Of a DNA stretch of 64,000 nucleotides, positions 2,245 to 16,635 are shown in pieces (position 1 is the stretch's first letter; each line of letters starts with the position of its first letter). Below the pieces are notes generated by a model. The model was not told the DNA's origin. It saw nothing but the letters and a program-made list of their open reading frames with translations, and made no database searches. The stretch is taken from the NCBI RefSeq assembly GCF_014397005.1, contig NZ_JACGWS010000016.1, positions 1 through 64,000 on the forward strand, in the 5' to 3' direction. The stretch is from Kordia aestuariivivens. GTDB taxonomy: Bacteria; Bacteroidota; Bacteroidia; Flavobacteriales; Flavobacteriaceae. The translations under genes were made by a program, and so were the position numbers.

Positions 2245-4173
2245 ATGAAAGAAATATTAAGTCTAAGGAATGAGGTAAATACGTTATTGAATTTAGCTCA
2301 TTCCTATTCTGAGAATACAAAAGAAATCAATCTTTTAGGTGAAATTTTATTAGATTTTGACAAAAATTCCGCGCGTCTTGGAGGAGTTTCAGAACTCAAT
2401 AATGATGGATCACCCTTACAATTATGTTTATCTTCAAATGCTAAAAAAGTGAAGATGAGACTTATTGCTGATCCCGCATGCGAAATTTTTCAGCCCAAAC
2501 TTAGAATTGCTGCTAGTAAAAAAATCTTAGAAGAGACATTAGTTCAGACAAAAACTACTTCATTAAAAGCATACTGTGATTATTTATTTCATGAAGTCTT
2601 ACATTATGATACAGTTTCTCAACTCAATGATTTCTACAGAGGTGCTTGTTGGATTGGTGCTTCACCAGATCAACCAGGAATTGCTTTATATTTAGATACC
2701 AAACCTCTAGGAATTGAAGGTGGATGGGATATGTCAGAAAAATGGTTAGCTAAAGTGCTTCCTGATGCAAGTGAAAGTCTAAAAATTGTCCAAATTCTTA
2801 GGAAATATGCGGTAACTGCTAGTATTGGATTGGAAGCTCTTACGCCACAATTGGGAAGAGCAAAAATTTATTTTAGGTTAACAGCACCCACACTCTTACG
2901 TAATTTGGGAACCAATCCACTGAATACTCCACAAATAAACAATTTCCTTACAAAAGTGATCGCAAATCAATCCATGAGTTTATCTGGAACGGTATTTAGT
3001 ATTGGTTTTGATTTAAGTACAGGAGATTTAGAAGATGCAAAAATTGATTTATGTGGACATTGTATAACGAAATCAAATGCTGAATGGATAACAGTCATAA
3101 ATGAGCTAACAAAAGAAAACGGATTACAAAAAATAGATCTTGAAAAATCTTTATTGGATAACCAAAATGAAGTAGCTTTTTTAGGCATGGGAGTTTCTTC
3201 TTCTAATGCAACAAGAATCAATGTATACCTAAAACCTAAATGGCCAGTAAACTTTGAATCTAGTTCAGCTAATTTCAACGATTATACCCAAACAAAACTT
3301 CAAAGAGCTATTCAATATCTAATTGATATCCAAAATGAAAATGGATCATGGGGAGATTACTATTTACCAGTTGGAACATCTATAGGTTGGATAACAGCTT
3401 ATGTTGGCTATGCCCTTGCTGAGATTGGACATATTCCTGGGTTTCAAAAAGCTATGGAGGCCGCAAACAAAGCAGCCGATTGGCTAGAAAATTATAGAGA
3501 TTATGAAAAAGGTTGGGGATATAATTCAACAACCGGAGCTGATGCTGACTCTACCGCTTGGACACTTAGATTGTTAAAACTATTAAAAAGATCTACTCAG
3601 TCAAAAGATGAAGAATTTTTAATGTCATACTGGAAACCATCAGGAGGTTTTTCAACATATACAGAACCAGACCATTGGGCTGATGCGCATCCTTGCGTTA
3701 CTCCAGTAGCATATATGGCATTATCAACAAAAAATCAAGAACTGCTATATCCTGAACTCATTCAGTATCTAAAAAATAGTGCGCCAAATAATGGGCAATG
3801 GCCAAACTATTGGTGGAAGAATAACCTCTATAGTACCTATCACTATTTAGAATTATTTAAAAAATTAGAATTGTCAGAAAATGAATTCTATCAAAATATT
3901 GAGTATCCATCTAATAGAGAAACGGTATTTGAGCAAGCACTAAAAATTGGTAGTATGCAACTTCGAAATATGGATGCCACTGCTGATATTAAGAATATAC
4001 TACACACACAATTACTTGACGGTAGATTCCCTGGCGGTTTTAACCTCAGAGTTACTGATCCATCCTGTGAAAAACCATGGGAAAACCCTAAAGGAAAGTT
4101 ATATTGTGATTATGCTAGCACTATCACAACCGCAACAGTGATTAAAGTGCTAAAACTAATGATTTATGACTAA
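2245..4173 (+). CDS. Fusion of DMATS/ABBA-like prenyltransferase and terpene-cyclase-like QW-repeat domain
   Basis: 642 residues in two parts. Residues 45-335 show the strand pattern of bacterial DMATS-type aromatic prenyltransferases: a DGSPLQLCLS segment (54-63), R72, a GIALYLD strand (145-151), an R205-x-K207-x-Y209 diphosphate-binding-like motif, and a final strand with R324 and Y328. Residues 345-642 resemble prenyltransferase/squalene-cyclase repeats, with a QW motif (QNENGSW, 363-369) and a D433-A-D435-S-T-A motif close to the DxDDTA of class II terpene cyclases, with the third Asp replaced by Ser. The C-terminal part is only about one alpha/alpha barrel long. The natural reading is prenylation of an aromatic or indole substrate followed by protonation-initiated cyclisation, but catalysis by the second domain is inference. 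It is followed by PhyH, P450 and methyltransferase genes on the same strand. Confidence 0.6.
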   Translation: MKEILSLRNEVNTLLNLAHSYSENTKEINLLGEILLDFDKNSARLGGVSELNNDGSPLQLCLSSNAKKVKMRLIADPACEIFQPKLRIAASKKILEETLVQTKTTSLKAYCDYLFHEVLHYDTVSQLNDFYRGACWIGASPDQPGIALYLDTKPLGIEGGWDMSEKWLAKVLPDASESLKIVQILRKYAVTASIGLEALTPQLGRAKIYFRLTAPTLLRNLGTNPLNTPQINNFLTKVIANQSMSLSGTVFSIGFDLSTGDLEDAKIDLCGHCITKSNAEWITVINELTKENGLQKIDLEKSLLDNQNEVAFLGMGVSSSNATRINVYLKPKWPVNFESSSANFNDYTQTKLQRAIQYLIDIQNENGSWGDYYLPVGTSIGWITAYVGYALAEIGHIPGFQKAMEAANKAADWLENYRDYEKGWGYNSTTGADADSTAWTLRLLKLLKRSTQSKDEEFLMSYWKPSGGFSTYTEPDHWADAHPCVTPVAYMALSTKNQELLYPELIQYLKNSAPNNGQWPNYWWKNNLYSTYHYLELFKKLELSENEFYQNIEYPSNRETVFEQALKIGSMQLRNMDATADIKNILHTQLLDGRFPGGFNLRVTDPSCEKPWENPKGKLYCDYASTITTATVIKVLKLMIYD

Positions 4174-4241: not shown

Positions 4242-5072
4242 ATGAAATATGATACTAAATGGGATATTTTTCATGATGAAGCAATGAACTCTGAATTTGC
4301 AGCGCAAGGATATCAAATACTTACAATTGATAATTTTGATGTTTTGAATGAATTGTTAGCAGTATATAATGAAACCTCTTTAAATTATAATGCTGGCTTT
4401 ACGGCAACTCTTTTAGTTCCAGATCATTCACATCGAAAACTAATTCATGAAAAAGTAGCTAGTATTTTGGCACCTACCATAAAACGTTATTTCAAATCAT
4501 ACCGACAAATGTGTTGTGGATATGCGGTAAAAAAAGGAAATGATGTCAATAGTTATATGCCATTGCATCAAGATATATCTATGGCAAAACCTGAAGGTAG
4601 AGCGGGACTAAGCTTTTGGTTTCCTTTAGTTGCTACCGATAAAGAAAATGGGAATCTTCAACTTGTGCCCAAAAGCCATCTTTTCTACCGACATGAAAGA
4701 GCCGCAGGAACATCTTTTCCTTTACTAGAACAAGAAGAGAAACTTAGAGAACATTATTTAAAGCCTATACCTACAAAACTTGGACAGGCAATTGTATTTG
4801 ACCAAACTCTATTTCATGCTTCTCCTCCGAATATGAGCGAAAAAGATAGAGTCGTAGCAACAAATGTTCTTTTGCCAGAAGAAAAACCAACTTTCTATTA
4901 TCACAGAAAAGTCGAAACCACTCCTGTTGAACTTGAAGCGTATAAAGTTGAAGATGATTTCTATTTTAGCCATCAATTAGGAACACGACCTAAAGATTTG
5001 GAAGCAATCGAGAATTTTAAAGAACATGCACCAAAAAAAGATACCTCTCTTTTTCCTAAACTGATGATTTAA
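4242..5072 (+). CDS. Phytanoyl-CoA dioxygenase (PhyH) family Fe(II)/2-oxoglutarate oxygenase
   Basis: 276 residues, normal for PhyH-family oxygenases. The iron-binding facial triad is visible as H109-x-D111 (in MPLHQDISM) and distal H192 (in LFHASPPN). R203 (KDRVVATN) sits where the 2-oxoglutarate carboxylate is bound. Segment SFWFPLVATDKENGNL (about 124-139) is the typical core before the second His. Such enzymes hydroxylate or otherwise oxidise small molecules using O2 and 2-oxoglutarate, and many act in natural-product pathways. It lies 68 nt after the prenyltransferase/cyclase fusion and 122 nt before the P450, so a tailoring role in the same pathway is likely. The substrate is unknown. 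Confidence 0.85.
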   Translation: MKYDTKWDIFHDEAMNSEFAAQGYQILTIDNFDVLNELLAVYNETSLNYNAGFTATLLVPDHSHRKLIHEKVASILAPTIKRYFKSYRQMCCGYAVKKGNDVNSYMPLHQDISMAKPEGRAGLSFWFPLVATDKENGNLQLVPKSHLFYRHERAAGTSFPLLEQEEKLREHYLKPIPTKLGQAIVFDQTLFHASPPNMSEKDRVVATNVLLPEEKPTFYYHRKVETTPVELEAYKVEDDFYFSHQLGTRPKDLEAIENFKEHAPKKDTSLFPKLMI

Positions 5073-5194: not shown

Positions 5195-6382
5195 ATGATA
5201 AAAACAGCAGATACATTTTCGATTGGCATGAAAAATCCATATCCTTCATATACATATATGCAGGAGCATTCACCAGTACATCAATTGCCATCAGGTCAAT
5301 GGATCATTTTTGATTATAAAAATGCACATGAATTATTACAAAGTCCAAAATGTTTGCATTGGGGACAAGATGAACGGGTTTTTGGAAACCTTCCTCCAAT
5401 GGAAAAAGCAATCGCAACAACCTTGTATACATTATCTCCAGGAAGTGATCGTCCGTATCGAAAGCAAATTTTACATCAATTAGCGGGGAGAAGTTTAAAA
5501 ATTGATGAAAAGTCAATGCAAGATTTGGCAGATGATTTACTGATAAATTTAAAAGGGAAAAACAACATTGATATTATCAGTGATTTTGCGCATCCTTTTA
5601 CATTCGGAACTATTTGTAGAATTATTGGAATTCCAGAAAATCAACGAGAAACATTTAGCAATTTAGTTGCAAAAATGGACGGCGGTTATTTATCTTGTAT
5701 TGATATTGAAACAGGAAAACAAACAATAGAAGGTGCCGCTTTCATTCAACAATTAAAAGAACTCATCAAACTAAAGCAAAACGAATTGGGCAATGATCTT
5801 TGTTCGGTATTGTTAGAAAGTAGTCATCAAGAACCCGATCAGGAAGCTTTTTTGATCTCCATGCTGATTTTACTGTTTTACGCAGGTCATCAAAACATGA
5901 TGAACTTTTTTGGAAATGCACTTTTAACACTACATGAACATCCCAAAATGCAGCAAGAATTTAGGGAACATCCGAAGTTACTAGACAAAGGAGTTGATGA
6001 ACTCATTCGGTATGACAGTCCGTTGCAATACATTATGCTCATCGCAAAAGAAGACATTAAGATTGATGATAAACATATTTCGGCAGGAAGTCAATTGCTA
6101 ATATCAGTAGGAGCAGCGAATAGAGATGCTTCCGTTTTTGAAAATCCTGAGCAACTCATATTAGACAGAGAACATAAACATTTAGGCTACGGAGTAGGAG
6201 CTTTTCGTTGTATTGGTGCTCGTTTGGCGCAATTGCAAGCGTCTACAGGATTAAATAGTTGGTTAAAACATGTCGTAGCATACAATCCTAAGCTAGATGA
6301 AGTTTCTTGGAGAATGCATCCTTTTGTACAACGAGGTCCAGCTTCTGTTCCTGTAAAAATTGATTGGAATGACGACAACTAA
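5195..6382 (+). CDS. Cytochrome P450 with atypical I-helix
   Basis: 395 residues, the usual size of a soluble bacterial P450. The haem-ligand loop is GYGVGAFRCIG with C339 as thiolate ligand. The K-helix ExxR motif is E269-L-I-R272, and the PERF-like region precedes the haem loop. The I-helix reads YAGHQNM (229-235), so the usual acid-alcohol pair after Ala-Gly, which delivers protons to O2, is replaced by Gln/Asn. This hints at an unusual reaction or peroxide use. The end of the gene overlaps the methyltransferase gene by 14 nt (from ATG 6369), implying co-transcription and coupled translation. No redox partner gene is visible nearby. Confidence 0.9.
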   Translation: MIKTADTFSIGMKNPYPSYTYMQEHSPVHQLPSGQWIIFDYKNAHELLQSPKCLHWGQDERVFGNLPPMEKAIATTLYTLSPGSDRPYRKQILHQLAGRSLKIDEKSMQDLADDLLINLKGKNNIDIISDFAHPFTFGTICRIIGIPENQRETFSNLVAKMDGGYLSCIDIETGKQTIEGAAFIQQLKELIKLKQNELGNDLCSVLLESSHQEPDQEAFLISMLILLFYAGHQNMMNFFGNALLTLHEHPKMQQEFREHPKLLDKGVDELIRYDSPLQYIMLIAKEDIKIDDKHISAGSQLLISVGAANRDASVFENPEQLILDREHKHLGYGVGAFRCIGARLAQLQASTGLNSWLKHVVAYNPKLDEVSWRMHPFVQRGPASVPVKIDWNDDN

Positions 6383-7106
6383 CAGTTCTTTTATTGATAA
6401 CTATGACGATATGATTCTTTCTCCAGTGATGAGAGAATTGTATAATGAGAGTGCTTTTTATAATGTAGGCTATTGGGAACATTCAAACATGCTCCTCAAA
6501 GAAGCGTGTCAAGCTTTAGTAGAAAAACATTTAGATTTGGTCAATCTTACAACAGCACCATTAACGATCTTAGATGTCGGTTGTGGTTTGGGAGCAACTA
6601 CAAATGCCATTAAAAAAAAGTTTCCCAATGCAAAAGTTACAGGAATAAATATTTCTTCTAGGCAAATTTCCTATGCACAACAACAGTATCCCAATTGCGA
6701 TTTTAAAGTGATGGATGCTGCACAACTTTCGTTCCCTGAAAATCATTTTGATTTGATTATTTCTGTAGAAGCCGTATTTCATTTTCATACGAGAGAAACT
6801 TTTTTAACAGAAGCATATAGAGTCTTAAAAAAAGAAGGAGAATTTATTTTTTCGGATGTACTCTTGTACGATTCTCATTGGGTTGGAAATTGGTCTGTTC
6901 CTAAAGAAAATATGTTGACTTCTTTAGAATCGTATCAAAACTTACTTTTAAAAACGCCTTTTCAATTAGATTTGTTTCAAGATATTACCAAAGAATCTTG
7001 GATGGGTTTTTGTCAACACATTCGTGAGAAAAAAGGAATGACAGCACTCGCCAATGGACTTCAAGAGACTATTATTGCGTATCTACTTATGAGGTTAAAG
7101 AAATAA
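6369..7106 (+). CDS. SAM-dependent methyltransferase (class I)
   Basis: ATG 6369 gives 245 residues; a TTG at 6360 would add three more residues but is less likely. SAM motif I is clear (ILDVGCGLGATT, about residues 66-77). It is followed by an acidic-loop region (VTGINISSRQISYA) and motif II/III-like segments (FDLIISVEAVFHF, YRVLKKEGEFIFSDV). The order matches the small-molecule O/N/C-methyltransferases of the UbiE/sterol-methyltransferase type. The start lies inside the P450 gene in another frame, a translational-coupling arrangement, so it probably methylates the same scaffold. It is the last gene of the 2.2-7.1 kb locus and faces the convergent lipoprotein gene. Confidence 0.85.
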   Translation: MTTTNSSFIDNYDDMILSPVMRELYNESAFYNVGYWEHSNMLLKEACQALVEKHLDLVNLTTAPLTILDVGCGLGATTNAIKKKFPNAKVTGINISSRQISYAQQQYPNCDFKVMDAAQLSFPENHFDLIISVEAVFHFHTRETFLTEAYRVLKKEGEFIFSDVLLYDSHWVGNWSVPKENMLTSLESYQNLLLKTPFQLDLFQDITKESWMGFCQHIREKKGMTALANGLQETIIAYLLMRLKK

Positions 7107-7134: not shown

Positions 7135-7156
7135 ATCTTCATTTGAAAACGAAGAT
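7135..7156. terminator. Hairpin between convergent genes
   Basis: ATCTTC at 7135-7140 pairs with GAAGAT at 7151-7156. A-rich sequence lies to the left (7127-7132) and T-rich to the right, so it could serve both the methyltransferase gene and the convergent lipoprotein gene, whose stop it abuts. Confidence 0.45.
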
Positions 7157-7801: not shown

Positions 7802-8473
7802 TTAGTCGATGAGTTCTTTTTTTACAGGAATAATCGTTCGTTGATTGATCAATTGTTGTTCTTCTAAAACTGCAATTGCTAGTTTTACATAATCGTCTAC
7901 AGATTCATCAATAGAAGTAGGATCTACAATGTCAATATATCCTTTCCAGATTAGTTCTCTATCTTTTGTTGGACAGATGCAATACATGGAGGTTTCCGAG
8001 TGATAAATGGTATATTGATCATAATATTCAGGATTGTAATAAATATCTTGATATCGTAAATATTCATCTGTGAATTTTCGATACGTTTCATCATAATTAT
8101 GATAATTTTCCTTGTAGGCTACTTTATCTTCCACGCCAATAATTTTTGTGAATAAAATCGTGTCAAACCCATCATCAATAAGCTTATCTTCCAGTGCTTT
8201 TAATTCCTCTTCTGTCATTTTTTCAGTTCTAAAAGAAGGATCAAAAAGTGTTAAACTTCCAACGGCTTCAGAACCTCGTAATTCGAGTTCATCTTTGAGT
8301 TGCTTTTCAAATTTTTGGCGCGCTTCTATATTTGATGTAAGTCCAACGATTAATACTTTTTGTGGTTCATACCGATCAATATCAGGGTTTTTCCAATTAT
8401 CTATCAATTGTGTGGTTGTACAGCTTATAACTGTGATAACAAGTAGTACTAGTAAAAAAAATAATCGCTTCAT
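7802..8473 (-). CDS. Putative lipoprotein, paralogue of its downstream neighbour
   Basis: 223 residues. A hydrophobic signal (LFFLLVLLVITVISC) ends at lipobox C18, followed by TTTQLIDNWKNP. The body matches the downstream paralogue strand by strand, but it is longer in the middle (a KMTEEELKALEDK helix) and has a charged tail. The family recurs in Bacteroidota as uncharacterised lipoproteins. The gene is 11 nt downstream of the 150-residue gene and is expected to be co-transcribed from the Crp/FNR-like promoter upstream of that gene, which links it to the stress regulon. No enzymatic motif is visible. Confidence 0.8.
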   Translation of the reverse strand: MKRLFFLLVLLVITVISCTTTQLIDNWKNPDIDRYEPQKVLIVGLTSNIEARQKFEKQLKDELELRGSEAVGSLTLFDPSFRTEKMTEEELKALEDKLIDDGFDTILFTKIIGVEDKVAYKENYHNYDETYRKFTDEYLRYQDIYYNPEYYDQYTIYHSETSMYCICPTKDRELIWKGYIDIVDPTSIDESVDDYVKLAIAVLEEQQLINQRTIIPVKKELID

Positions 8474-8484
8474 GACTGTGATTT

Positions 8485-8937
8485 TTAAAGATTTCTATCG
8501 AGTAAGGTTCTATATTTTATTTCTTTCTTAATCTCTTTTATAATTGTAAATAGTTGTGTTTTTAGCATTTTATATTCTTCTAAGAATTGATCAATTTCAA
8601 TCGCTAATTTTTTGTGTACTTCTTTGTATTCTTTTTCTTCTTCAGGCTGATCAATATCATCCACTAAAACTTTGAGTTTCTTTTCGTGCGCAATTACCGC
8701 ATCAATAAGTATATTATTTTGCTTTTCGGATCGGTTGATGGCATCGACCATTTCTTTATCACTTGAAAAATCTTTAAACTCTAATAATTCAATCGTGTAT
8801 GTTTTGATGAGGTCTTCAAAAAAAAGATGTTCGTCTTTTACAAAATTCAATTCTGAAAGCCACGCAAGTGAAGCTTTGTGTATGTCTTCAGGACTTAACC
8901 ATTTTATATAATTTGCAGTTGTTTGTGTTGTTTTCAT
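8485..8937 (-). CDS. Hypothetical helical protein, first gene of a stress-type operon
   Basis: 150 residues, no signal peptide, predicted to be almost wholly helical. Residues 60-145 are rich in Glu/Lys/Leu with heptad-like spacing (HEKKLKVLVDDI, HKKLAIEIDQFLEEYKML), suggesting a coiled coil. I recognise no family. It is the first gene after the promoter at 8992-9034 (palindrome and perfect -7 element) and is followed by the two paralogous lipoprotein genes, so its product is expected to rise under the same conditions as the universal stress proteins. Confidence 0.7.
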   Translation of the reverse strand: MKTTQTTANYIKWLSPEDIHKASLAWLSELNFVKDEHLFFEDLIKTYTIELLEFKDFSSDKEMVDAINRSEKQNNILIDAVIAHEKKLKVLVDDIDQPEEEKEYKEVHKKLAIEIDQFLEEYKMLKTQLFTIIKEIKKEIKYRTLLDRNL

Positions 8938-8991
8938 AGGTTGTTTTTTTAGCTATTAAAGCAGAAAATAGTTAGACATTATTTTATACTT

Positions 8992-9034
8992 CAAAATTAC
9001 CGATGAAACCCAGGCGATACAATGATATATATCA
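8992..9034 (-). promoter_or_regulatory. Crp/FNR-like box plus -7 element, promoter of the 8937-7156 operon
   Basis: The box TGATATATATCA lies at 9023-9034. On the minus strand it is followed by exactly 23 nt and then TAATTTTG (8992-8999), a perfect TAnnTTTG -7 element. The centre of the box would be near -41, the class II activator position. Confidence 0.7.
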
Positions 9035-9084
9035 GCTTACTAAATTAAACAATGATTTTTTTTTGGATAGATTATTTATGGAAA

Positions 9085-10458
9085 TCAGACCATTACTTTT
9101 ACAACATCTGTCAATTTTGGAATGCTTGCGTCCCAATTGTATACATCTTTTATTTTGACTCTAAACGCATCTAAAGCGGTTGGTTCGCCATGAATTAGAT
9201 ATATTTTTTCAGGAATATTTTTAATCGTTTGCATCCAGTTTAGTAAATCTTTCTGATCGGCATGCGCCGATAAACTATCTACACTTTTGATGGTTGCTTT
9301 TACAGGATAATACTTCCCGAAAAATCGAATTTCATGAACACCTTCTTGCAATTGTCTGCCACGTGTTCCTTCTGCCTGATAGCCAACTAATAAAACGGTA
9401 GTTGATGGTTCGTCAATCAATTGTTGTAAATACGTAAGCACTCTTCCACCAGTAACCATTCCGCTACCAGCGATCACAATCTTAGAGCGTTTATCATCAA
9501 TCGTTTCCCAAGTTTCTTTGTACGATTGTACAATATTGATATGATTGCACATCGCGTTGCATTCTTCAGGCGATAGTTTGTGCCATTTTGGAAAACGTTT
9601 GAATACTTCCAACACATTTGCGCCCATCGGACTGTCTACAAAGATGGGAATGTTTGGAATTTTGTTCTTTTTGTAGAGTTTCCATAGAATGTACATCAAC
9701 GTTTGCAAACGTTCCACCGCAAAACTCGGAATGATTAGATTTCCTCTAGTGTGAATGATATTTTTTATGATTGTAGTCAATATTTCTTCTACATCTTCTT
9801 CAGGATGTAATTTATTGCCGTACGTACTTTCTATAAACAAAAAATCTGCCCATTCAGGTGTTTTTGGATCGCTTAATAAATAGTCGTTTTGGCGTCCAAT
9901 ATCTCCCGAAAATACAAATCGTTTTGCATTAATATCCAATTCTATAAATGTAGCTCCAATGATATGCCCGTTGTATTGAAATCGATAGGAGATATGTTCT
10001 GATAAGGAAATCCATTTGGATTCAATTTCTACTTGAAATAATTGGAGTGTTTTTGTAACATCGTCCAACGTGTAAAAAGGCAATGCAGGATGGTGTTTTG
10101 AATACTGTTCTTTGTTTGCTTTTTTAGCTTCTTCTTCATGAATTTTAGCACTGTCTCTTAGAATAATTTCAGCAATGGCTAAGGTTGGCGCTGTACCAAT
10201 AATTTTCCCGCGAAACCCTTGTTGGAACAAACGTGGCAAATATCCAACATGATCTAAATGTCCGTGTGTGAGTAAAACGACATCAATAGCGGCGACATCT
10301 ACAGGAAGATCGCACCAATTGAGTTCTCGGAGTTCTTTGAGTCCTTGAAACATACCACAATCAATCAAAATAATTTTTTCTGAGGTTTCAATAAGAAACT
10401 TAGATCCCGTAACGACACCAGCAGCGCCTAAAAAGTTGATGTTTACAAATTTATCCAT
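9085..10458 (-). CDS. MBL-fold beta-CASP hydrolase (RNA-processing exonuclease-like)
   Basis: 457 residues. The metallo-beta-lactamase zinc motif is T-H65-G-H67-L-D69-H70. Further metal ligands lie near FSGDIGR (about 205) and SAHAD, with a closing LIHGEP segment. The GSGMVTGGRVL and LVGYQAEGTRGR segments are typical of the beta-CASP subfamily (CPSF73/RNase J-like, KH-less type). Family members are nucleases acting on RNA. In this context, beside a ribosome-hibernation factor and universal stress proteins, it may work in RNA turnover under energy limitation. It is the last gene of a four-gene operon starting at the USP gene at 12670; the gap to the gene upstream is 9 nt. Confidence 0.9.
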   Translation of the reverse strand: MDKFVNINFLGAAGVVTGSKFLIETSEKIILIDCGMFQGLKELRELNWCDLPVDVAAIDVVLLTHGHLDHVGYLPRLFQQGFRGKIIGTAPTLAIAEIILRDSAKIHEEEAKKANKEQYSKHHPALPFYTLDDVTKTLQLFQVEIESKWISLSEHISYRFQYNGHIIGATFIELDINAKRFVFSGDIGRQNDYLLSDPKTPEWADFLFIESTYGNKLHPEEDVEEILTTIIKNIIHTRGNLIIPSFAVERLQTLMYILWKLYKKNKIPNIPIFVDSPMGANVLEVFKRFPKWHKLSPEECNAMCNHINIVQSYKETWETIDDKRSKIVIAGSGMVTGGRVLTYLQQLIDEPSTTVLLVGYQAEGTRGRQLQEGVHEIRFFGKYYPVKATIKSVDSLSAHADQKDLLNWMQTIKNIPEKIYLIHGEPTALDAFRVKIKDVYNWDASIPKLTDVVKVMV

Positions 10459-10467
10459 GGTAGTTAA

Positions 10468-11319
10468 TTAGTGATTTTTTATGCCACATAGTTGTGATAT
10501 TTCATGAAAAATCTTTTGTTGTCGTATTTCGGAAACATTCAAGTGATCTAAAAAGAATTTGTCATGCAACAATTCTCTGCAAAGCACAATATCTCTACTA
10601 AGTAAAAACTGTTTTTCTCTTTTGGTGAGTAATGTTGATACTGTAATTGGATATAATCCCAAGCGATCAATTCGATCTTTTAAACCTTCATTTTGCGGAT
10701 AATCCCAACTCAATAAATACAAACCAGCACAGTTTCCATATTTTAAAGCATCTTCTGTAAATCGTGTATTGGTCACAACCCAACCTTTGGTTAATGACGT
10801 TTCATTTTTTGGATTTGCATTCCAATGTGTTTTTACATCTTGATAGCGTGAGTGTATGTACAACGGCACTTTTACGTTACACGTAATTCCTTGTTCACTA
10901 TGAAATTTACATTCAATCACTGTGGTTTCATTATTTTTAGTTACAATGACATCAATTTCGTGCGTGACACATTTTCCTTGCAAAAATTGACCAACTTCAG
11001 CTGTATAGCCCGAATATTTTAACACAGCACTCACAAAACGTTCAAAAGGAAATCCGGTAGGACCTAATTCATAAATTGCTTTTTTGAGCTTGTATTTTGA
11101 AGCTAAATAACTTTTTTTCTTTTTTAATAAAGCAAACGCTCTGTTGTAGATTTCTTTGGTCGAAATTCCTTGGTATAATTCATCACGTACTTTATCTACA
11201 ATATGCTGAATTAACGCATCATCTGCGCCAGTTCTTTTTAAGGAAGAACGCAGCTTGTTGAATGAGAATTTCACTTTTTTGCCAGATGCTTTTGTAATGA
11301 TTAGCGATGTGTCTTCCAT
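10468..11319 (-). CDS. ATP-cone domain fused to PD-(D/E)xK (Mrr-like) nuclease domain
   Basis: From ATG 11319 it has 283 residues; a start at 11379 would add 20 residues of poor sequence. Residues 5-90 form an ATP-cone (ITKASGKKVKFSFNKL, then a helical RSSLKRTGADD region), the nucleotide-sensing module of ribonucleotide reductase and NrdR. Residues 93-190 resemble a type IV restriction/Mrr-like endonuclease, with D123 (EIDVIV) and E136-C-K138 as a plausible PD-(D/E)xK site. The combination suggests a nuclease gated by nucleotide level. It sits between an eRF1-like gene and an MBL hydrolase gene in the same operon. Its target is unknown, and no methyltransferase partner is present. Confidence 0.75.
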   Translation of the reverse strand: MEDTSLIITKASGKKVKFSFNKLRSSLKRTGADDALIQHIVDKVRDELYQGISTKEIYNRAFALLKKKKSYLASKYKLKKAIYELGPTGFPFERFVSAVLKYSGYTAEVGQFLQGKCVTHEIDVIVTKNNETTVIECKFHSEQGITCNVKVPLYIHSRYQDVKTHWNANPKNETSLTKGWVVTNTRFTEDALKYGNCAGLYLLSWDYPQNEGLKDRIDRLGLYPITVSTLLTKREKQFLLSRDIVLCRELLHDKFFLDHLNVSEIRQQKIFHEISQLCGIKNH

Positions 11320-11398: not shown

Positions 11399-11806
11399 TT
11401 AATTCGATTTAAAAAAATCTTTTACCAAAGCTTTCACTTGATTATCCGTCATGCTATCTGCTTTTTTGATGCCTTTTATTTTTGTGCTTAAATCCTTATG
11501 ATTTTCTTGTAATTCCTTACTGAATTTTTCATTAGTTCCAGCAGGTCCAAAAATAGCCAACGCTTCTGTATCCTTAATTTCAGCAGCAATTTCTTTAAAA
11601 TAGTTTTTCATTTGATGCTTCTCTCGTTCTAAATATTTACGATCCTGAACAACATCTTGTGGACCGCCTTTTAGTCGTGTTCCCGAACCGCCATGCGGAT
11701 GAAAATTCTCAATCTTTGAAAGAATGGTTTGTAGTGTTTCTTGTTCGTTTTCTAAGGTTACAATAAGTGCTTTGTACTTATCTAGCCAAATGCCTGTCTT
11801 TTTCAT
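11399..11806 (-). CDS. eRF1/baeRF-like small protein
   Basis: 135 residues, soluble. It begins with MKKTGIWLDKYKALIVTL, the strand pattern of host-attachment/eRF1-like proteins. A basic GTRLKGGPQDVVQDRKYLER region follows, then ALAIFGPAGTNEKF (about residues 92-105), which resembles the core strand and loop of archaeo-eukaryotic release-factor-related proteins in bacteria. Such proteins are thought to act at the ribosome, which fits the USP/hibernation-factor setting, but no peptidyl-hydrolysis GGQ motif is present. It is the second gene of the operon, 12 nt after the USP gene. The assignment rests on pattern only. Confidence 0.5.
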   Translation of the reverse strand: MKKTGIWLDKYKALIVTLENEQETLQTILSKIENFHPHGGSGTRLKGGPQDVVQDRKYLEREKHQMKNYFKEIAAEIKDTEALAIFGPAGTNEKFSKELQENHKDLSTKIKGIKKADSMTDNQVKALVKDFFKSN

Positions 11807-11818
11807 GAGCTGTATGTT

Positions 11819-12670
11819 TTAGTTTCTTAAATCGTGTAGTACCAATACGGGAACTTTAAAAAAAGTAACTTCTTTTACCAACGGATTTGTTAAAATACTT
11901 CCGAAAAACGAGTGTTTCTTATTGATAAAAGCTACCATGTCACTATCTCTACTATCTACAAAAATGTTTATGGCATCATTTATAGAATTGAGTGGTAAGG
12001 TGTGAAACGAGTAGGTATTGTCTTCAAAAATTTCTTTTAGTAATTCTTGACGCTCTTTTTGACTTTTGTTTAATTCCCTATCTGAAATGTGTAAAACCGC
12101 AATATTCGCATTGCATTTTTTTGCAATTGATGTTACGTATTGCAATTCTCTTCGTTTGTAATGTGTTTTATAACTTGTTGGAAATACAATTTCTTTGGGT
12201 AGCTCATGCGGAGCATTTTCAGGAACAGCCAATACAGGGCAATTGCGCACTTTTTCCATGGTATAAATGGCTACACTTCCAAAAACAGCATCTTTTCTGT
12301 TTGATTCTCCTTTTGTTCCCATGATGACAATTTCTATATCTTTTTCCTCCACCACATTTTTAATGGCTTCCACGACATCATTAAATTTAGAAATAATCTT
12401 AAATGTATGTTGTGAATGCTCAGAAGCGCTCATCTTCAGTAAATCGACCACGTTTGCTAATTCTTTTTCAGAGGCAGCTTTTGCGGTTTCATAAGATTCG
12501 CTTCCTTCCACCATATTGAATAAACTATCCATTAGGTTTTTAGGTGCAGAAAATACATTCAAAAGGTAAAAATCACAGACTTCATCTTCATATAATCGTG
12601 TTGCATATTTTATGGCAAGCCATGCATTTTTTGAGAAATCGGTAGGTACTAATATTTTATGTCTCATCAT
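11819..12670 (-). CDS. Universal stress protein, two tandem Usp domains
   Basis: From ATG 12670 (or the adjacent ATG 12667) it has about 283 residues; the longer frame up to 12712 would run back through the promoter region. Domain 1 starts with KILVPTDFSKNA and carries the ATP-loop signature MGTKG plus FGSVA (about residues 110-130). Domain 2 starts near PKEIVFPTSYKTHYK and is degenerate. Tandem-Usp proteins are cytoplasmic and generally bind ATP or dimerise under stress or starvation. This gene heads the operon with eRF1-like, ATP-cone nuclease and MBL genes and has its own Crp/FNR-like promoter. Confidence 0.9.
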   Translation of the reverse strand: MMRHKILVPTDFSKNAWLAIKYATRLYEDEVCDFYLLNVFSAPKNLMDSLFNMVEGSESYETAKAASEKELANVVDLLKMSASEHSQHTFKIISKFNDVVEAIKNVVEEKDIEIVIMGTKGESNRKDAVFGSVAIYTMEKVRNCPVLAVPENAPHELPKEIVFPTSYKTHYKRRELQYVTSIAKKCNANIAVLHISDRELNKSQKERQELLKEIFEDNTYSFHTLPLNSINDAINIFVDSRDSDMVAFINKKHSFFGSILTNPLVKEVTFFKVPVLVLHDLRN

Positions 12671-12690
12671 GATTAATTTTAGGTTATGTA

Positions 12691-12733
12691 TTAAAATACA
12701 AGACTTTAGCAATAAATCCTATGATATAAATCA
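12691..12733 (-). promoter_or_regulatory. Crp/FNR-like box plus -7 element upstream of USP gene at 12670
   Basis: Box TGATATAAATCA at 12722-12733; 23 nt further on the minus strand is TATTTTAA (12691-12698), a weak match to TAnnTTTG. The box ends 51 nt before ATG 12670. Confidence 0.6.
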
Positions 12734-12735
12734 GC

Positions 12736-13563
12736 TTACTCTGGAATCACCATGAATGGAATTTTAAGATGAAAACCTATTTTTTTGATGACAGGTTCAT
12801 GCGTGATACTTTCTATAAAACTGTGTGAGTAATATACCATTGCTAAGATGTCTATTTCAAGTTCTTCTATACAATCATTGATCTCCTTTGATTTGCTTGC
12901 ATACGTTGGAATCCAGTGAAAACTGTGTACATGATTTTTTAGATATTGCCTCAGTGTTGTTAAGTTCTTTTCTTGACGATCAGTTAATTTATCTTCTTTA
13001 TTGATATGAATCACTCTAATTGTTGCGTTGTATAGATCAGCTAATCTTTTTAGAAAATGTAATTCTTTGGCATCACAATACCTGTTGAAATCAGTTGGAA
13101 AAGCAATCTGTTTTGGAACTACAAATTCGTAATTATCAGGAATTGCCAACACAGGGCATTTTTTCACCTTTTTAAACATTTTTGTGGTATTGCTTCCAAA
13201 AAGAATGCCTTTTGCACCTGTTGCGCCTTTTGTTCCCATTGCCACCAAATCAATAGCATATTTATCAATGGCACCTTCAATGGCATCATCTAAATTTCCT
13301 AAACTTAAAAGAATTTCAAATTCATGATTGCCGTTTGCGTTTGTTTCTTCTAATTGTGCCTTTAATTTTAATAAATCATTTTTGGCATTATCACGCATTG
13401 TTGTTAGCAATTTATTGGAAAAACTTGAAATCCTGGAGGCTTTCAATTGCGTAGCGTTTAAGAGATAAATTGTGCAAGTTTCGTTTGCATATAACTTTAA
13501 GGTATATACAATTGCGTTCCATGCATTGTCTGAAAAATCGGTTGGTAAAAGGATATTTGTCAT
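12736..13563 (-). CDS. Universal stress protein, two tandem Usp domains
   Basis: ATG 13563 (TNILLPTDFSDNAWNA) is chosen because the upstream alternative at 13602 lies across the promoter spacer. 275 residues. Domain 1 has MGTKGATGAKG and FGSNTTKM, a good ATP-binding loop of the G-x2-G-x9-G(S/T) type. Domain 2 begins at PKQIAFPTDFNRY and lacks the glycine loop. It is about as similar to the other USPs here as they are to each other, pointing to old tandem duplication. Single-gene unit under its own Crp/FNR-like promoter. Confidence 0.9.
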   Translation of the reverse strand: MTNILLPTDFSDNAWNAIVYTLKLYANETCTIYLLNATQLKASRISSFSNKLLTTMRDNAKNDLLKLKAQLEETNANGNHEFEILLSLGNLDDAIEGAIDKYAIDLVAMGTKGATGAKGILFGSNTTKMFKKVKKCPVLAIPDNYEFVVPKQIAFPTDFNRYCDAKELHFLKRLADLYNATIRVIHINKEDKLTDRQEKNLTTLRQYLKNHVHSFHWIPTYASKSKEINDCIEELEIDILAMVYYSHSFIESITHEPVIKKIGFHLKIPFMVIPE

Positions 13564-13587
13564 TGTCTTCACTTTTAATGGATAGCT

Positions 13588-13630
13588 TAAATTTAAGATC
13601 ATAAAACACGATGTACTATGATATAAATCA
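13588..13630 (-). promoter_or_regulatory. Crp/FNR-like box plus -7 element upstream of USP gene at 13563
   Basis: Box TGATATAAATCA at 13619-13630; after 23 nt on the minus strand comes TAAATTTA (13588-13595), one mismatch to TAnnTTTG. The box lies 55 nt before ATG 13563 and only 9 nt past the stop of the preceding gene. Confidence 0.65.
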
Positions 13631-13639
13631 GTTTTGAAA

Positions 13640-14482
13640 TTATGCTTTTGCAGGAATTACTAAAAACGGAATGTTTAAGTGAAATCCTATTTTTTTAACT
13701 TTAGAACCGAAAAACAAGTTTTCAAAAAACGAATGTTTATTATTTATCATTGCCAATAAATTTATCCTCGATTTTGATTGAAATTCAGTAATTGATTTGG
13801 CAACATTGGTATCATGAACGGTATGAAATAAATGTGCAGTATTTTTAAAAAACACAGCTAATGTTTCCTTGTTCAATTTTTGTCCGATGGTTAATTCATC
13901 AGTGTGCGTTACATGTAAAATATTGATTCTTGAATGGTGTAATGTGGCAATATCTTTAATGAATTGGAGATGTTTTTCTTGAAAACTAATTTCGTAATCA
14001 GAAGGAAATAATAGTTCGTGTGGTTCTTCAAAAGCAAAATTATTCGGAATTGCCAATAAAGGACATTTTGCATCTTTTAGTACGTGTATTGTATTAGTGC
14101 CAAATAAAATCCCTTTTAATCCTGAAGCACCTTGCGTTCCCATAACAATCAAATCCATGGCGCCTTCTTCTTGTAAATCATTAATTTCTGTCACCAACAT
14201 ATTAAATGATGATTTTTGAGTGAACGTATGTTTTGGATTCGGAAATTCCAATTCAATTTTTCGTTGCATCGTGTTTAATCCAGTTATTGAAGCTTCTTTC
14301 ATTGCATCTATAAGTCCAAATTGAGCTGAACCGACTTCCATGTATTCTACCTGATAAATAATTGGTGTATACGTGTTTAGTAAGATGAAGTTACATTCTT
14401 GCTCTTTAAACAATTGAACAGCATAGAATATAGCATTCAATGAATTGTCTGAAAAATCGGTTGGTAAAAGGATGTTTATCAT
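13640..14482 (-). CDS. Universal stress protein, two tandem Usp domains
   Basis: 280 residues starting MINILLPTDFSDNSLNA. Domain 1 carries MGTQGASGLKG and FGTNTIH, the nucleotide-binding loop; domain 2 starts at PHELLFPSDYEIS without the loop. Insertions in the first domain (a TPIIYQVEYMEVG stretch) set it apart from its neighbours. It starts 24 nt after the stop of the USP gene at 14507-15355 and has no palindrome of its own, so it should be the second gene of that operon. Confidence 0.9.
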   Translation of the reverse strand: MINILLPTDFSDNSLNAIFYAVQLFKEQECNFILLNTYTPIIYQVEYMEVGSAQFGLIDAMKEASITGLNTMQRKIELEFPNPKHTFTQKSSFNMLVTEINDLQEEGAMDLIVMGTQGASGLKGILFGTNTIHVLKDAKCPLLAIPNNFAFEEPHELLFPSDYEISFQEKHLQFIKDIATLHHSRINILHVTHTDELTIGQKLNKETLAVFFKNTAHLFHTVHDTNVAKSITEFQSKSRINLLAMINNKHSFFENLFFGSKVKKIGFHLNIPFLVIPAKA

Positions 14483-14506
14483 GATCGTTATTTTTAAATG
14501 AAACTA

Positions 14507-15355
14507 TTAATCGCGGCGCACATTTTGGAGTGCCAAAAATGGAATATCTATATATAAACTCAGCTTTTTTATGGTAGATTGCAGTAATATATCTTCCAAA
14601 AAAGAACGCCGTGTGTTTACCATTACGAGCATATCAATGGCGTTTTCTTTGATGTAGGTATAAATTGCGTTGCTAATGCTTGTGTTGTTTGTCGTTTTAA
14701 AGTTGAGTGTATTTTTACACAATTCATCTCTTAAAAATTGCTGATTATCTTCTTGTCGGATTGATAACTTTCCACTTTTAGAAACGTGCAACATGTCAAT
14801 GGTAGCTTTGTATTTAGAAGCCATTTCACACACCAACTTTAATTCTCTTCGTTTGTATGGAATCATATAATTTGTGGGAAATAAAATATGTCTTGGTGGC
14901 GTATACGTATAATTTTCAGGAATTGCCAATACTGGCGATTGCACATATTTTAAGACTTGTAACGTGTTGCTTCCAAAGGTGAATTTCCGATCGTTGGTTT
15001 GTCCGCGCGTTCCCATGACGATGCAATCAATATTCTCCCGATCGACAATAGAGTCAGATTCATCAATAAGTGTATTATTGGCAGAAACTATCGTATACGT
15101 ATGTCTTGGATTTGGAGAAATTTCATGTACAGCTTCTAATATTTCGTTTAATTGCTGTTCCGCTTTTGCACCTATAACTTCTGCAGCTTTCGCAACATTT
15201 TCTCTTTTCAGCAACGCGTTATCTGCATAAATTTCATCTTGATAGGTATGCATGATAAAAAACTCACTTCTATCATATTTGAATAATTCCAAAGCAAACT
15301 TTAATGCATTCATTGCATTCGCTGAAAAATCGGTAGGAACTAATATTTTTCTCAT
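14507..15355 (-). CDS. Universal stress protein, two tandem Usp domains
   Basis: 282 residues, start RKILVPTDFSANAMNA. Domain 1 retains MGTRGQTNDRK and FGSNTLQV as the ATP loop; domain 2 begins at PRHILFPTNYMIPYK. The phrase YKRRELK is shared with the USP at 11819-12670, marking these two as the closer pair. First gene of a two-gene USP operon with promoter at 15381-15423. Confidence 0.9.
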   Translation of the reverse strand: MRKILVPTDFSANAMNALKFALELFKYDRSEFFIMHTYQDEIYADNALLKRENVAKAAEVIGAKAEQQLNEILEAVHEISPNPRHTYTIVSANNTLIDESDSIVDRENIDCIVMGTRGQTNDRKFTFGSNTLQVLKYVQSPVLAIPENYTYTPPRHILFPTNYMIPYKRRELKLVCEMASKYKATIDMLHVSKSGKLSIRQEDNQQFLRDELCKNTLNFKTTNNTSISNAIYTYIKENAIDMLVMVNTRRSFLEDILLQSTIKKLSLYIDIPFLALQNVRRD

Positions 15356-15380
15356 TGCTGTATGATTTTAATTAGATATT

Positions 15381-15423
15381 TAAAAATACATTTCAGCATC
15401 GCGAAAAACTATGATATTTATCA
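15381..15423 (-). promoter_or_regulatory. Crp/FNR-like box plus -7 element upstream of USP gene at 15355
   Basis: Box TGATATTTATCA at 15412-15423, then 23 nt, then TATTTTTA at 15381-15388 on the minus strand (one mismatch to TAnnTTTG). The box ends 56 nt before the ATG. Confidence 0.65.
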
Positions 15424-15462
15424 GCTACAAAGAAGTAATCGCCTGATTTTAAAAAGAATTTT

Positions 15463-15765
15463 CTATAAATAAGGTTTTAAAGTACTTTTCCTTTTTTCAA
15501 GTTGTCTCTGTAAATCACTAATGGTATTTTTTACCGCTAATTCATAGTTTTTTTCATTTGAAGAAGCAAATATTCGCGGACCATTCAAGCTGAGTTCTAT
15601 TTCGCAGATATCGCCTTTTCCTTTGGGATCTTTTTCCTTTTTGAAAAATACCTCAGCACGAATTAACATACTATATTTTTGCGCCAATTTGTTTAGTTTT
15701 CCAGTGGTGTATTCAGTCATGGCTTCACTTGTTGCCATACCTATAAATTGAATATGTATTTTCAT
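15463..15765 (-). CDS. hpf: Ribosome hibernation promoting factor, short form
   Basis: 100 residues, the length of short HPF/RaiA proteins. The beta-alpha-beta-beta-beta-alpha pattern is visible: KIHIQFIG strand, a long helix (EAMTEYTTGKLNKLAQKY), strands RAEVFFKKE, CEIELSL and RIFASSNE, and a C-terminal helix (YELAVKNTISDLQRQLEKRK) with a basic tail. The protein binds the 30S mRNA/tRNA channel and stabilises inactive 70S/100S ribosomes. It follows the USP gene at 16635 by 12 nt and shares its promoter, so ribosome hibernation and USP synthesis are co-regulated. Confidence 0.85.
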   Translation of the reverse strand: MKIHIQFIGMATSEAMTEYTTGKLNKLAQKYSMLIRAEVFFKKEKDPKGKGDICEIELSLNGPRIFASSNEKNYELAVKNTISDLQRQLEKRKSTLKPYL

Positions 15766-15777
15766 TTGTATATAAAT

Positions 15778-16635
15778 TTAATAGTGTTGAACTTTATCAT
15801 GTAATACCAAAAATGGAATTGTAATGTGGTAGCTAATCTTTTCTACTTTAGAATGAAATAATATTTGTTGAAAATAATTTAGATTCTTAGCAACCATTAC
15901 CATCAAATCAATATCTCTGCTTTCTACAAAACATTGTATGGCATCTTCTACTTTGGTATTGGTTAAAAAATGCGAACTATATTCATATTCTTCAAATATT
16001 GCTTCTAACAATTCTTTATGTTCTTGTTGTTCAATGTTGAGTTTTTCATCTTTTTTATTAATATGAAGAATTCTAAGTGACGATTTTGTGTTTTTTAAAA
16101 TATCTGAAAGCGGTTGCAGTGTTCTAATATCATACGATAACGCATAATCGGTTGGAAAGGCAATTTCTTTTATGGTTTTGTATGTTGCCTTTTCAGGAAC
16201 GACTAATGTGGCACATTTTACTTTCGTAATTACGTCGCCTGTATTGCTACCAACAATATATTGCTTTAATCCTGATGCGCCTTTGGTTCCCATAGCAATC
16301 AGGTCAATATGCTTTTCTTCAACATGTTTCCGGATCGATTTTATGAAAAAATTGTAATCGGTGAGTGTATAAAATCGATGAAGTTTATTATTGGGAAACC
16401 CAGAAGAAACACGGATTAATAATTCTTTTAATTTCCTTTTTGCGGGTTTTGTATACAAATCTTCTATTGCTTCATAAGAAGGCAAATAGGGTACGTCTCC
16501 CGATGCTACAGTTCTTAACTCATTGACATGTAGTATGTAGAAATTGCAGGCAGTGTTTTTAAAAAAATTCAAGACATACTTAATAGCATTCCATGAATTT
16601 TCAGAGAAATCCGTGGGTAATAAAATATTCTTCAT
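15778..16635 (-). CDS. Universal stress protein, two tandem Usp domains
   Basis: 285 residues beginning KNILLPTDFSENSWNA. Domain 1 contains MGTKGASGLKQ and VGSNTGDV, consistent with nucleotide binding; domain 2 begins at IKEIAFPTDYALS. First gene of an operon with the hibernation factor. Its promoter has the only perfect TAnnTTTG among the USP genes but an imperfect box, a trade-off expected if both elements contribute to strength. Confidence 0.9.
   Translation of the reverse strand: MKNILLPTDFSENSWNAIKYVLNFFKNTACNFYILHVNELRTVASGDVPYLPSYEAIEDLYTKPAKRKLKELLIRVSSGFPNNKLHRFYTLTDYNFFIKSIRKHVEEKHIDLIAMGTKGASGLKQYIVGSNTGDVITKVKCATLVVPEKATYKTIKEIAFPTDYALSYDIRTLQPLSDILKNTKSSLRILHINKKDEKLNIEQQEHKELLEAIFEEYEYSSHFLTNTKVEDAIQCFVESRDIDLMVMVAKNLNYFQQILFHSKVEKISYHITIPFLVLHDKVQHY

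Follow-up and report, generated by a model that had tools for sequence, protein, structure and literature searches.

A predicted prenyltransferase–terpene cyclase fusion in Kordia aestuariivivens and its glycine-rich partner protein

The window analysed here is a stretch of 64,000 nucleotides from the flavobacterium Kordia aestuariivivens. Its first genes form a run of six on the + strand, the third of which is an open reading frame of 642 aa with an ATG start (2245-4173) that encodes two domains, referred to below as P and C. The run consists of the following features.

568-1221, + strand: ORF1, 217 aa, with the beta-type stretch IQPGGKLIL at its C-terminus
1371-2039, + strand: gene of a glycine-rich protein (222 aa, 32% Gly), the proposed prenylation substrate
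2245-3270, + strand: P domain of the fusion, residues 1-342, predicted DMATS-type ABBA prenyltransferase fold with R205-x-K207-x-Y209
3271-4173, + strand: C domain of the fusion, MstE-type monodomain class II terpene cyclase by homology, with the acid motif D433-A-D435-S-T
4242-5072, + strand: PhyH-family 2-oxoglutarate/Fe(II) oxygenase (Pfam PhyH, E 8.7e-18), a proposed tailoring hydroxylase
5195-6382, + strand: cytochrome P450 (Pfam p450, E 3.5e-15), a proposed tailoring oxidase
6360-7106, + strand: SAM-dependent methyltransferase (Pfam Methyltransf_11, E 3.6e-24) overlapping the P450 gene, also proposed to act in tailoring

The start of the window is the start of the contig, and only 568 bp are seen upstream of ORF1. 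The genes from position 7156 onward lie on the opposite strand. The best NCBIfam match of the P450, TIGR04538, falls under the cut-off of that model. Between the six genes, no Trp-bearing ORFs of 20-150 aa were found. Elsewhere in the window (11819-16635, - strand), five clustered paralogues that form one BLAST cluster resemble universal stress proteins, a name given by eye.

The structure model predicts the P domain to be a ten-stranded barrel of five alpha-beta-beta-alpha units. A first-pass annotation, made from the sequence alone, had proposed an ABBA-like strand pattern with R205-x-K207-x-Y209; the motif is present, and structure prediction with fold comparison found the barrel in the N-terminal half. 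Among the best 50 entries listed, the closest solved folds are those of the tryptophan prenyltransferases 5-DMATS, PriB and IptA, to which the P domain is 13-15% identical. These three enzymes use DMAPP on free tryptophan. In DMATS-type enzymes, the R-x-K-x-Y strand serves in diphosphate binding and carbocation shielding. It is invariant in all ten aligned sequences (the window and nine relatives) and is still kept in the most divergent relative, found in genome G1066. Across the three phyla, R205, K207, Y209, K266, R324 and Y328 do not vary, and all six are placed on strands of the predicted barrel. By sequence, the P domain has no Pfam, NCBIfam or PDB family match. Against Pfam, including Trp_DMAT, nothing was found up to E 1, and ten members of the prenyltransferase family gave one match, at chance level. 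The cyanobactin (PatF/TruF-type) prenyltransferases have no sequence match to the P domain and are absent among the best 50 fold entries listed. As modelled, the P domain shares the DMATS fold without sequence membership of Trp_DMAT. The pTM of the full-length fusion model is 0.58, so the relative placement of the two domains is unsure.

The C-terminal half opens with a QW-like stretch (Q363 ... G367-S-W369), and its sequence matches 8pak (E 6.3e-23) and MstE (E 4.4e-16). There are only two D-x-D tripeptides in the whole fusion protein, at 37 and at 433 (DADSTAWT). The QW motif followed by DADSTA (D433-D435), which the first-pass annotation had read here, is present in both its parts. At the equivalent place, the acid motif is DADST in the solved relatives 8pak, 8paj and 6ij1, and DADTT in MstE; among the homologues described below, it is DSDST in Marinovum and DADST in G1066. 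D435 aligns with the second Asp of the MstE motif, at chain index 110 by count; equating this index with the catalytic D109 assumes a one-residue tag offset. The first-pass annotation had entered two caveats, a single alpha/alpha barrel and a Ser in place of the third Asp. Both are correct and neither is unusual: a single alpha/alpha domain is typical of MstE-type monodomain cyclases, and Ser at the third position is normal for the subfamily, since the solved relatives read DADST or DADTT. A degenerate acid motif owing to this Ser is ruled out, as MstE itself has DADTT. The half might also have been a non-enzymatic alpha/alpha toroid with no acidic pocket. This is rejected on the fold, since every C-domain row in the list of 50 is, to go by its title or molecule name, a cyclase or a prenyl-cyclising synthase, while the pocket is judged by sequence only, from D435.

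The prenyltransferase family looks rare and patchy. Besides the window's own copy, 397 genomes of its family contain no homologue of the N-terminal half, and 395 genomes of its phylum contain one. A scan of a collection of 84,980 species found eight loci, in three Aquimarina, Flavobacterium terrae, Marinovum algicola, two Mucilaginibacter and a Syntrophaceae MAG; the scan used two peptide patterns from a two-sequence alignment, and more relatives may exist. In 295 genomes of Marinovum's family, G1066 was found besides Marinovum itself (E 6.7e-6, a weak match that the neighbourhood confirms). Wider searches, in the phylum of Marinovum (349 genomes) and in that of the Syntrophaceae MAG (198), returned the starting genomes only. 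No other prenyltransferase was found in 99 relatives searched with the fusion. A search with the single P domain returned 70 stretches and one of viral contigs returned two, with no relative in either. Plasmid searches gave no relative, and one cyclase-only match: an MstE-like cyclase on plasmid NZ_CP097152.1 of Deinococcus sp. QL22 (418109-419074, - strand) that is 30% identical to residues 303-603 of the window fusion. Among the genomes that were searched whole, seven each have a single copy of the prenyltransferase. The loci thus number 11 in all, including the window and with none dropped, from about seven lineages in three phyla; they are not independent, as three are from Aquimarina, two from Mucilaginibacter and two are Flavobacterium-like.

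The arrangement of prenyltransferase and cyclase varies among these loci. The two are fused in the window and in Marinovum algicola (654 aa, L014 9839-11803, DSDSTA), the latter a full-length homologue at 36% identity. In G1066 (L026) they are split into overlapping genes, a prenyltransferase (8927-9973) and an MstE-type cyclase (8040-8933, DADSTAW) that is 36-37% identical to that of Marinovum and 28% to that of the window; neither product has a Pfam match, and both were assigned by alignment to the window and Marinovum. Seven of the 11 loci (Flavobacterium, Aquimarina, Mucilaginibacter and G154) have a standalone prenyltransferase and, further down the cluster, a separate DxDD-type cyclase. 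The DxDD-type motif is seen in all seven of these cyclases, and the MstE-type profile still detects all seven (E 9e-6 to 4e-10). BLAST against the window C domain gave no full-length match for the three that were compared, and to judge from such comparisons the separate cyclases are a different branch. In the Syntrophaceae locus (L017, 20.9 kb), neither cyclase profile found an ORF. Since the cyclase can be fused, adjacent, of a separate type or unseen, the constant core of the locus is the prenyltransferase and not the cyclase. A phylogeny of the 11 prenyltransferases has long branches and open forks and does not place the fused copies relative to each other, so the fusion may have had one origin or two.

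The second fusion in Marinovum and the split, overlapping pair in G1066 rule out an artefact of assembly or annotation. Given that the N-terminal half is a predicted ABBA barrel, that the C-terminal half matches class II cyclases, and that a fused homologue exists in another phylum, the fusion is not due to chance. The central claim of the first-pass annotation, that a prenyltransferase of the DMATS fold and a class II terpene cyclase form one protein, is supported for both halves by fold or sequence. The oxygenase also recurs: nine other loci have PhyH genes downstream of the prenyltransferase gene (seven by a BLAST cluster, with Pfam in addition for the F. terrae copies, and also Marinovum and G1066). 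The Syntrophaceae locus likewise has a methyltransferase downstream of the prenyltransferase gene.

Immediately before the prenyltransferase gene, each of the 11 loci has a glycine-rich gene of 221-246 codons. The encoded proteins have 31-36% Gly and GGN repeats and can be aligned over their length. The invariant columns are Met1, 41 glycines, C38, W40 and Y156. In the window, W40 is the sole Trp of the protein (codon 1488-1490) and lies in RNAHCNWATGCE. A homologous Trp within C-x-W is found in all 11 proteins, ten of which have a single Trp and one of which, the Syntrophaceae copy, has three. The Syntrophaceae copy keeps the motif Trp, but its three Trp and its lack of the second Cys of the motif count against reading W40 as the acceptor, as does the result that neither cyclase profile found an ORF in its locus. 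On the same side, no leader is recognisable by eye in the glycine-rich protein, and at about 220 residues it is far longer than the usual RiPP core.

The linkage of this gene with the prenyltransferase was examined with a profile built from the first ~65 residues of eight copies. In each of eight prenyltransferase genomes the profile has exactly one match, the neighbour gene; because these genomes supplied the profile, the match is by construction, but the lack of any further copy is a result. When 149 genomes related to that of the window were searched, the profile matched the window's own copy and nothing in the 148 others; for the prenyltransferase itself, the search with the fusion covered 99 relatives. 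In a hold-out over the seven lineages, the profile of the others found the left-out copies each time among 1114 ORFs, with E values from 5e-5 (G1066) to 6e-25 (Flavobacterium), and no ORF outside the family matched.

ORF1 or a relative precedes the glycine-rich gene in all 11 loci as well, so constant adjacency alone does not single out the substrate. The ORF1 proteins fall into two subgroups that are weakly linked. By phmmer against the 1114 ORFs of the loci, the window ORF1 matches the G1066 copy (E 1.3e-5) and the Syntrophaceae copy (E 0.001). In the other subgroup, E values are 1e-53 to 2e-68 among seven Bacteroidota copies, five of which built the profile, and 3.5e-9 to Marinovum; matches across subgroups are at E 0.001-0.009. 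Trp is present in the ORF1 of three loci (the window, with four, L017 and L026) and absent from the other eight. The Syntrophaceae ORF1 relative has a weak resemblance to the G8 domain (E 0.019). A further small protein (101-118 aa, with C-x-x-C) follows the prenyltransferase gene in seven loci (L012 11020-11361, L010 10943-11248, L015 10876-11232 and their equivalents), and its F. terrae copy has no Pfam match. By eye, Marinovum and G1066 have similar short frames downstream, which the profile did not detect.

Computation gave both folds, the fusion, the conserved sites, the order of the genes and the linkage between the prenyltransferase and glycine-rich genes. On the modelled folds, the fusion enzyme very probably adds an isoprenoid chain to tryptophan and then closes that chain into rings. 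The acceptor is most likely the glycine-rich protein of the neighbouring gene. This is suggested by three features taken together: a fold near that of the Trp prenyltransferases, a dedicated neighbour whose repetitive chain has one invariant Trp, and a cyclase that varies in its arrangement (fused, adjacent or exchanged for another kind). The architecture itself is already described in print. A 2026 review (PMC13290415) describes NctPC as a fusion of an ABBA prenyltransferase with an MstE-like cyclase; the enzyme transfers a geranylgeranyl chain to tryptophan and cyclises it. According to this review, both NctPC and ChrPC act on peptide Trp. The first-pass annotation, which knew of no described enzyme with this combination, is therefore wrong on this point.

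The reading that we consider probable is that the window fusion is a two-domain maturase of the NctPC type, which prenylates W40 of the glycine-rich protein and cyclises the attached chain, with the other enzymes of the cluster tailoring the product. The P domain would bind an allylic diphosphate (farnesyl or geranylgeranyl) and prenylate Trp40 of the upstream-encoded protein. In the C domain, D435 of DADST would protonate the terminal alkene, and the chain would become a polycyclic terpene still on the Trp. Decoration of the rings would then fall to the PhyH oxygenase, P450 and methyltransferase. The chain length, the order of the steps, the acceptor residue and the product are those that we infer. 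The prenylate-then-cyclise logic put forward in the first-pass annotation is supported, but a substrate made by the ribosome, whether protein or peptide, is more likely than the small-molecule indole-terpenoid that it suggested.

That small-molecule route is nevertheless the first alternative to be weighed. Here, the fusion would be a meroterpenoid synthase that prenylates free tryptophan, indole or phenol and then cyclises the chain, and the glycine-rich protein and ORF1 would serve as scaffold, storage or export. The set of PhyH, P450 and methyltransferase is typical of small-molecule clusters. By their titles, the closest solved P-domain folds among the best 50 listed take free Trp, or small molecules derived from it, as substrates, and MstE acts on a geranylgeranylated dihydroxybenzoate. 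However, this alternative leaves unexplained why the glycine-rich gene was met only with the prenyltransferase and in none of the 148 other relatives, and why the lone Cys-x-Trp is invariant in a protein that otherwise varies except for glycine, Met1 and one Tyr. The only other families in every locus are this glycine-rich gene with its invariant Trp and the small beta-type ORF, which makes a small-molecule product less likely. In addition, NctPC, which has been characterised and shares this architecture, is described as a peptide-tryptophan maturase (PMC13290415). On balance, a small-molecule synthase appears unlikely.

A ribosomal target other than W40 is a poorer candidate still, and a rather improbable one. 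The target could be C38, ORF1 or a peptide encoded elsewhere, with the glycine-rich protein as a recognition scaffold. C38 is as invariant as W40, ORF1 relatives are as constant as the glycine-rich gene, with four Trp in the window copy, and the cluster begins 568 bp from the contig end, so an upstream element could be missing. Against this, ORF1 is without Trp in eight of the 11 loci, the gaps between the six genes contain no short Trp-bearing ORF, and DMATS-type enzymes are aromatic prenyltransferases. Lastly, that the P domain is a degenerate or repurposed ABBA barrel, such as a binding domain without prenyltransferase activity on an MstE-like cyclase, is hardly credible: it would account for the missing family match and for some FgaPT2 active-site positions that seem changed (Gln59 in DGSPLQ, where we take FgaPT2 to have Glu), but not for six strand residues invariant in three phyla, nor for a Syntrophaceae copy in a 20.9 kb locus with no recognisable cyclase.

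A wider proposal, which includes W40 as the acceptor, may be put tentatively, as a possibility short of an even chance. An entire glycine-rich, collagen-like protein of ~220 residues, in place of a short peptide with leader and core, would bear one tailored polycyclic terpene on its lone Cys-x-Trp and serve as a lipidated protein of structural or surface type in Bacteroidota, Pseudomonadota and Thermodesulfobacteriota, and its dedicated ABBA prenyltransferase would have recruited at least two kinds of cyclase (fused MstE and separate DxDD). What may be new in this system is the constant glycine-rich partner of the prenyltransferase; no glycine-rich or collagen-like prenylation substrate was found in the open-licence literature. 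With a single enzyme, a single constant glycine-rich partner and a single conserved Trp, the question of the acceptor is compact and testable. Were the glycine-rich protein the substrate, a terpene would be cyclised on a full-length protein, a kind of protein lipidation likewise not found in that literature.

Several known systems share a part of this organisation. The HAD-fused terpene cyclases, such as the drimenol synthase AsDMS, likewise pair a class II beta-domain cyclase with a catalytic domain unrelated to it, but the fusion partner in AsDMS is a HAD-like phosphatase and not a prenyltransferase (PMC12365925). By the title of PMC9128629, these cyclases come from marine bacteria. MstE, merosterolic acid synthase (PDB 6sbb-6sbg), is standalone, and the substrates in its structures are prenylated dihydroxybenzoates, according to the PDB titles. 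The 5-DMATS of Streptomyces coelicolor, PriB and IptA act on free Trp by their structure titles, and the window P domain differs from them in having no Pfam match.

ChrPC, the trans-IDS-like counterpart of NctPC, follows the same two-step logic, but its P domain has an isoprenoid-synthase fold and is not an ABBA barrel, as the review describes it (PMC13290415). A fusion in genome G026 (L007 8090-10072, - strand, on C84), called ChrPC-like by domain order and by eye only, has a C domain to which that of the window is 27% identical. The N-terminal domain of this 660-aa protein is isoprenoid-synthase-like (DDIFD, by eye), and the domain fused to it is an MstE-type cyclase (DADSS). An M50 peptidase-like gene lies downstream of it, and an ORF in the same locus (11668-11877, - strand; VEELEQRLE...GTNGDWDLKY) resembles a leader with a Trp core. 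In another locus (L008, G057:C2), a standalone MstE-type cyclase (357 aa, DADSS; 9434-10507, - strand) touches a 338-aa gene (8418-9434, - strand) that, by eye only, may be isoprenoid-synthase-like or terpene-synthase-like.

The closest parallel is NctPC, reportedly a bifunctional RiPP maturase from the work of Hubrich et al. 2024 (Chem 10:3224). Like the window fusion, it is described in the review as an ABBA prenyltransferase and an MstE-like cyclase in one polypeptide, with Trp as acceptor (PMC13290415); the likeness is one of fold and text, not of sequence, and the order of its domains, with P first, is taken from its name. The window system differs from NctPC in its constant partner, a glycine-rich protein of 221-246 aa, and in a cluster that adds a PhyH oxygenase, a P450 and a methyltransferase.
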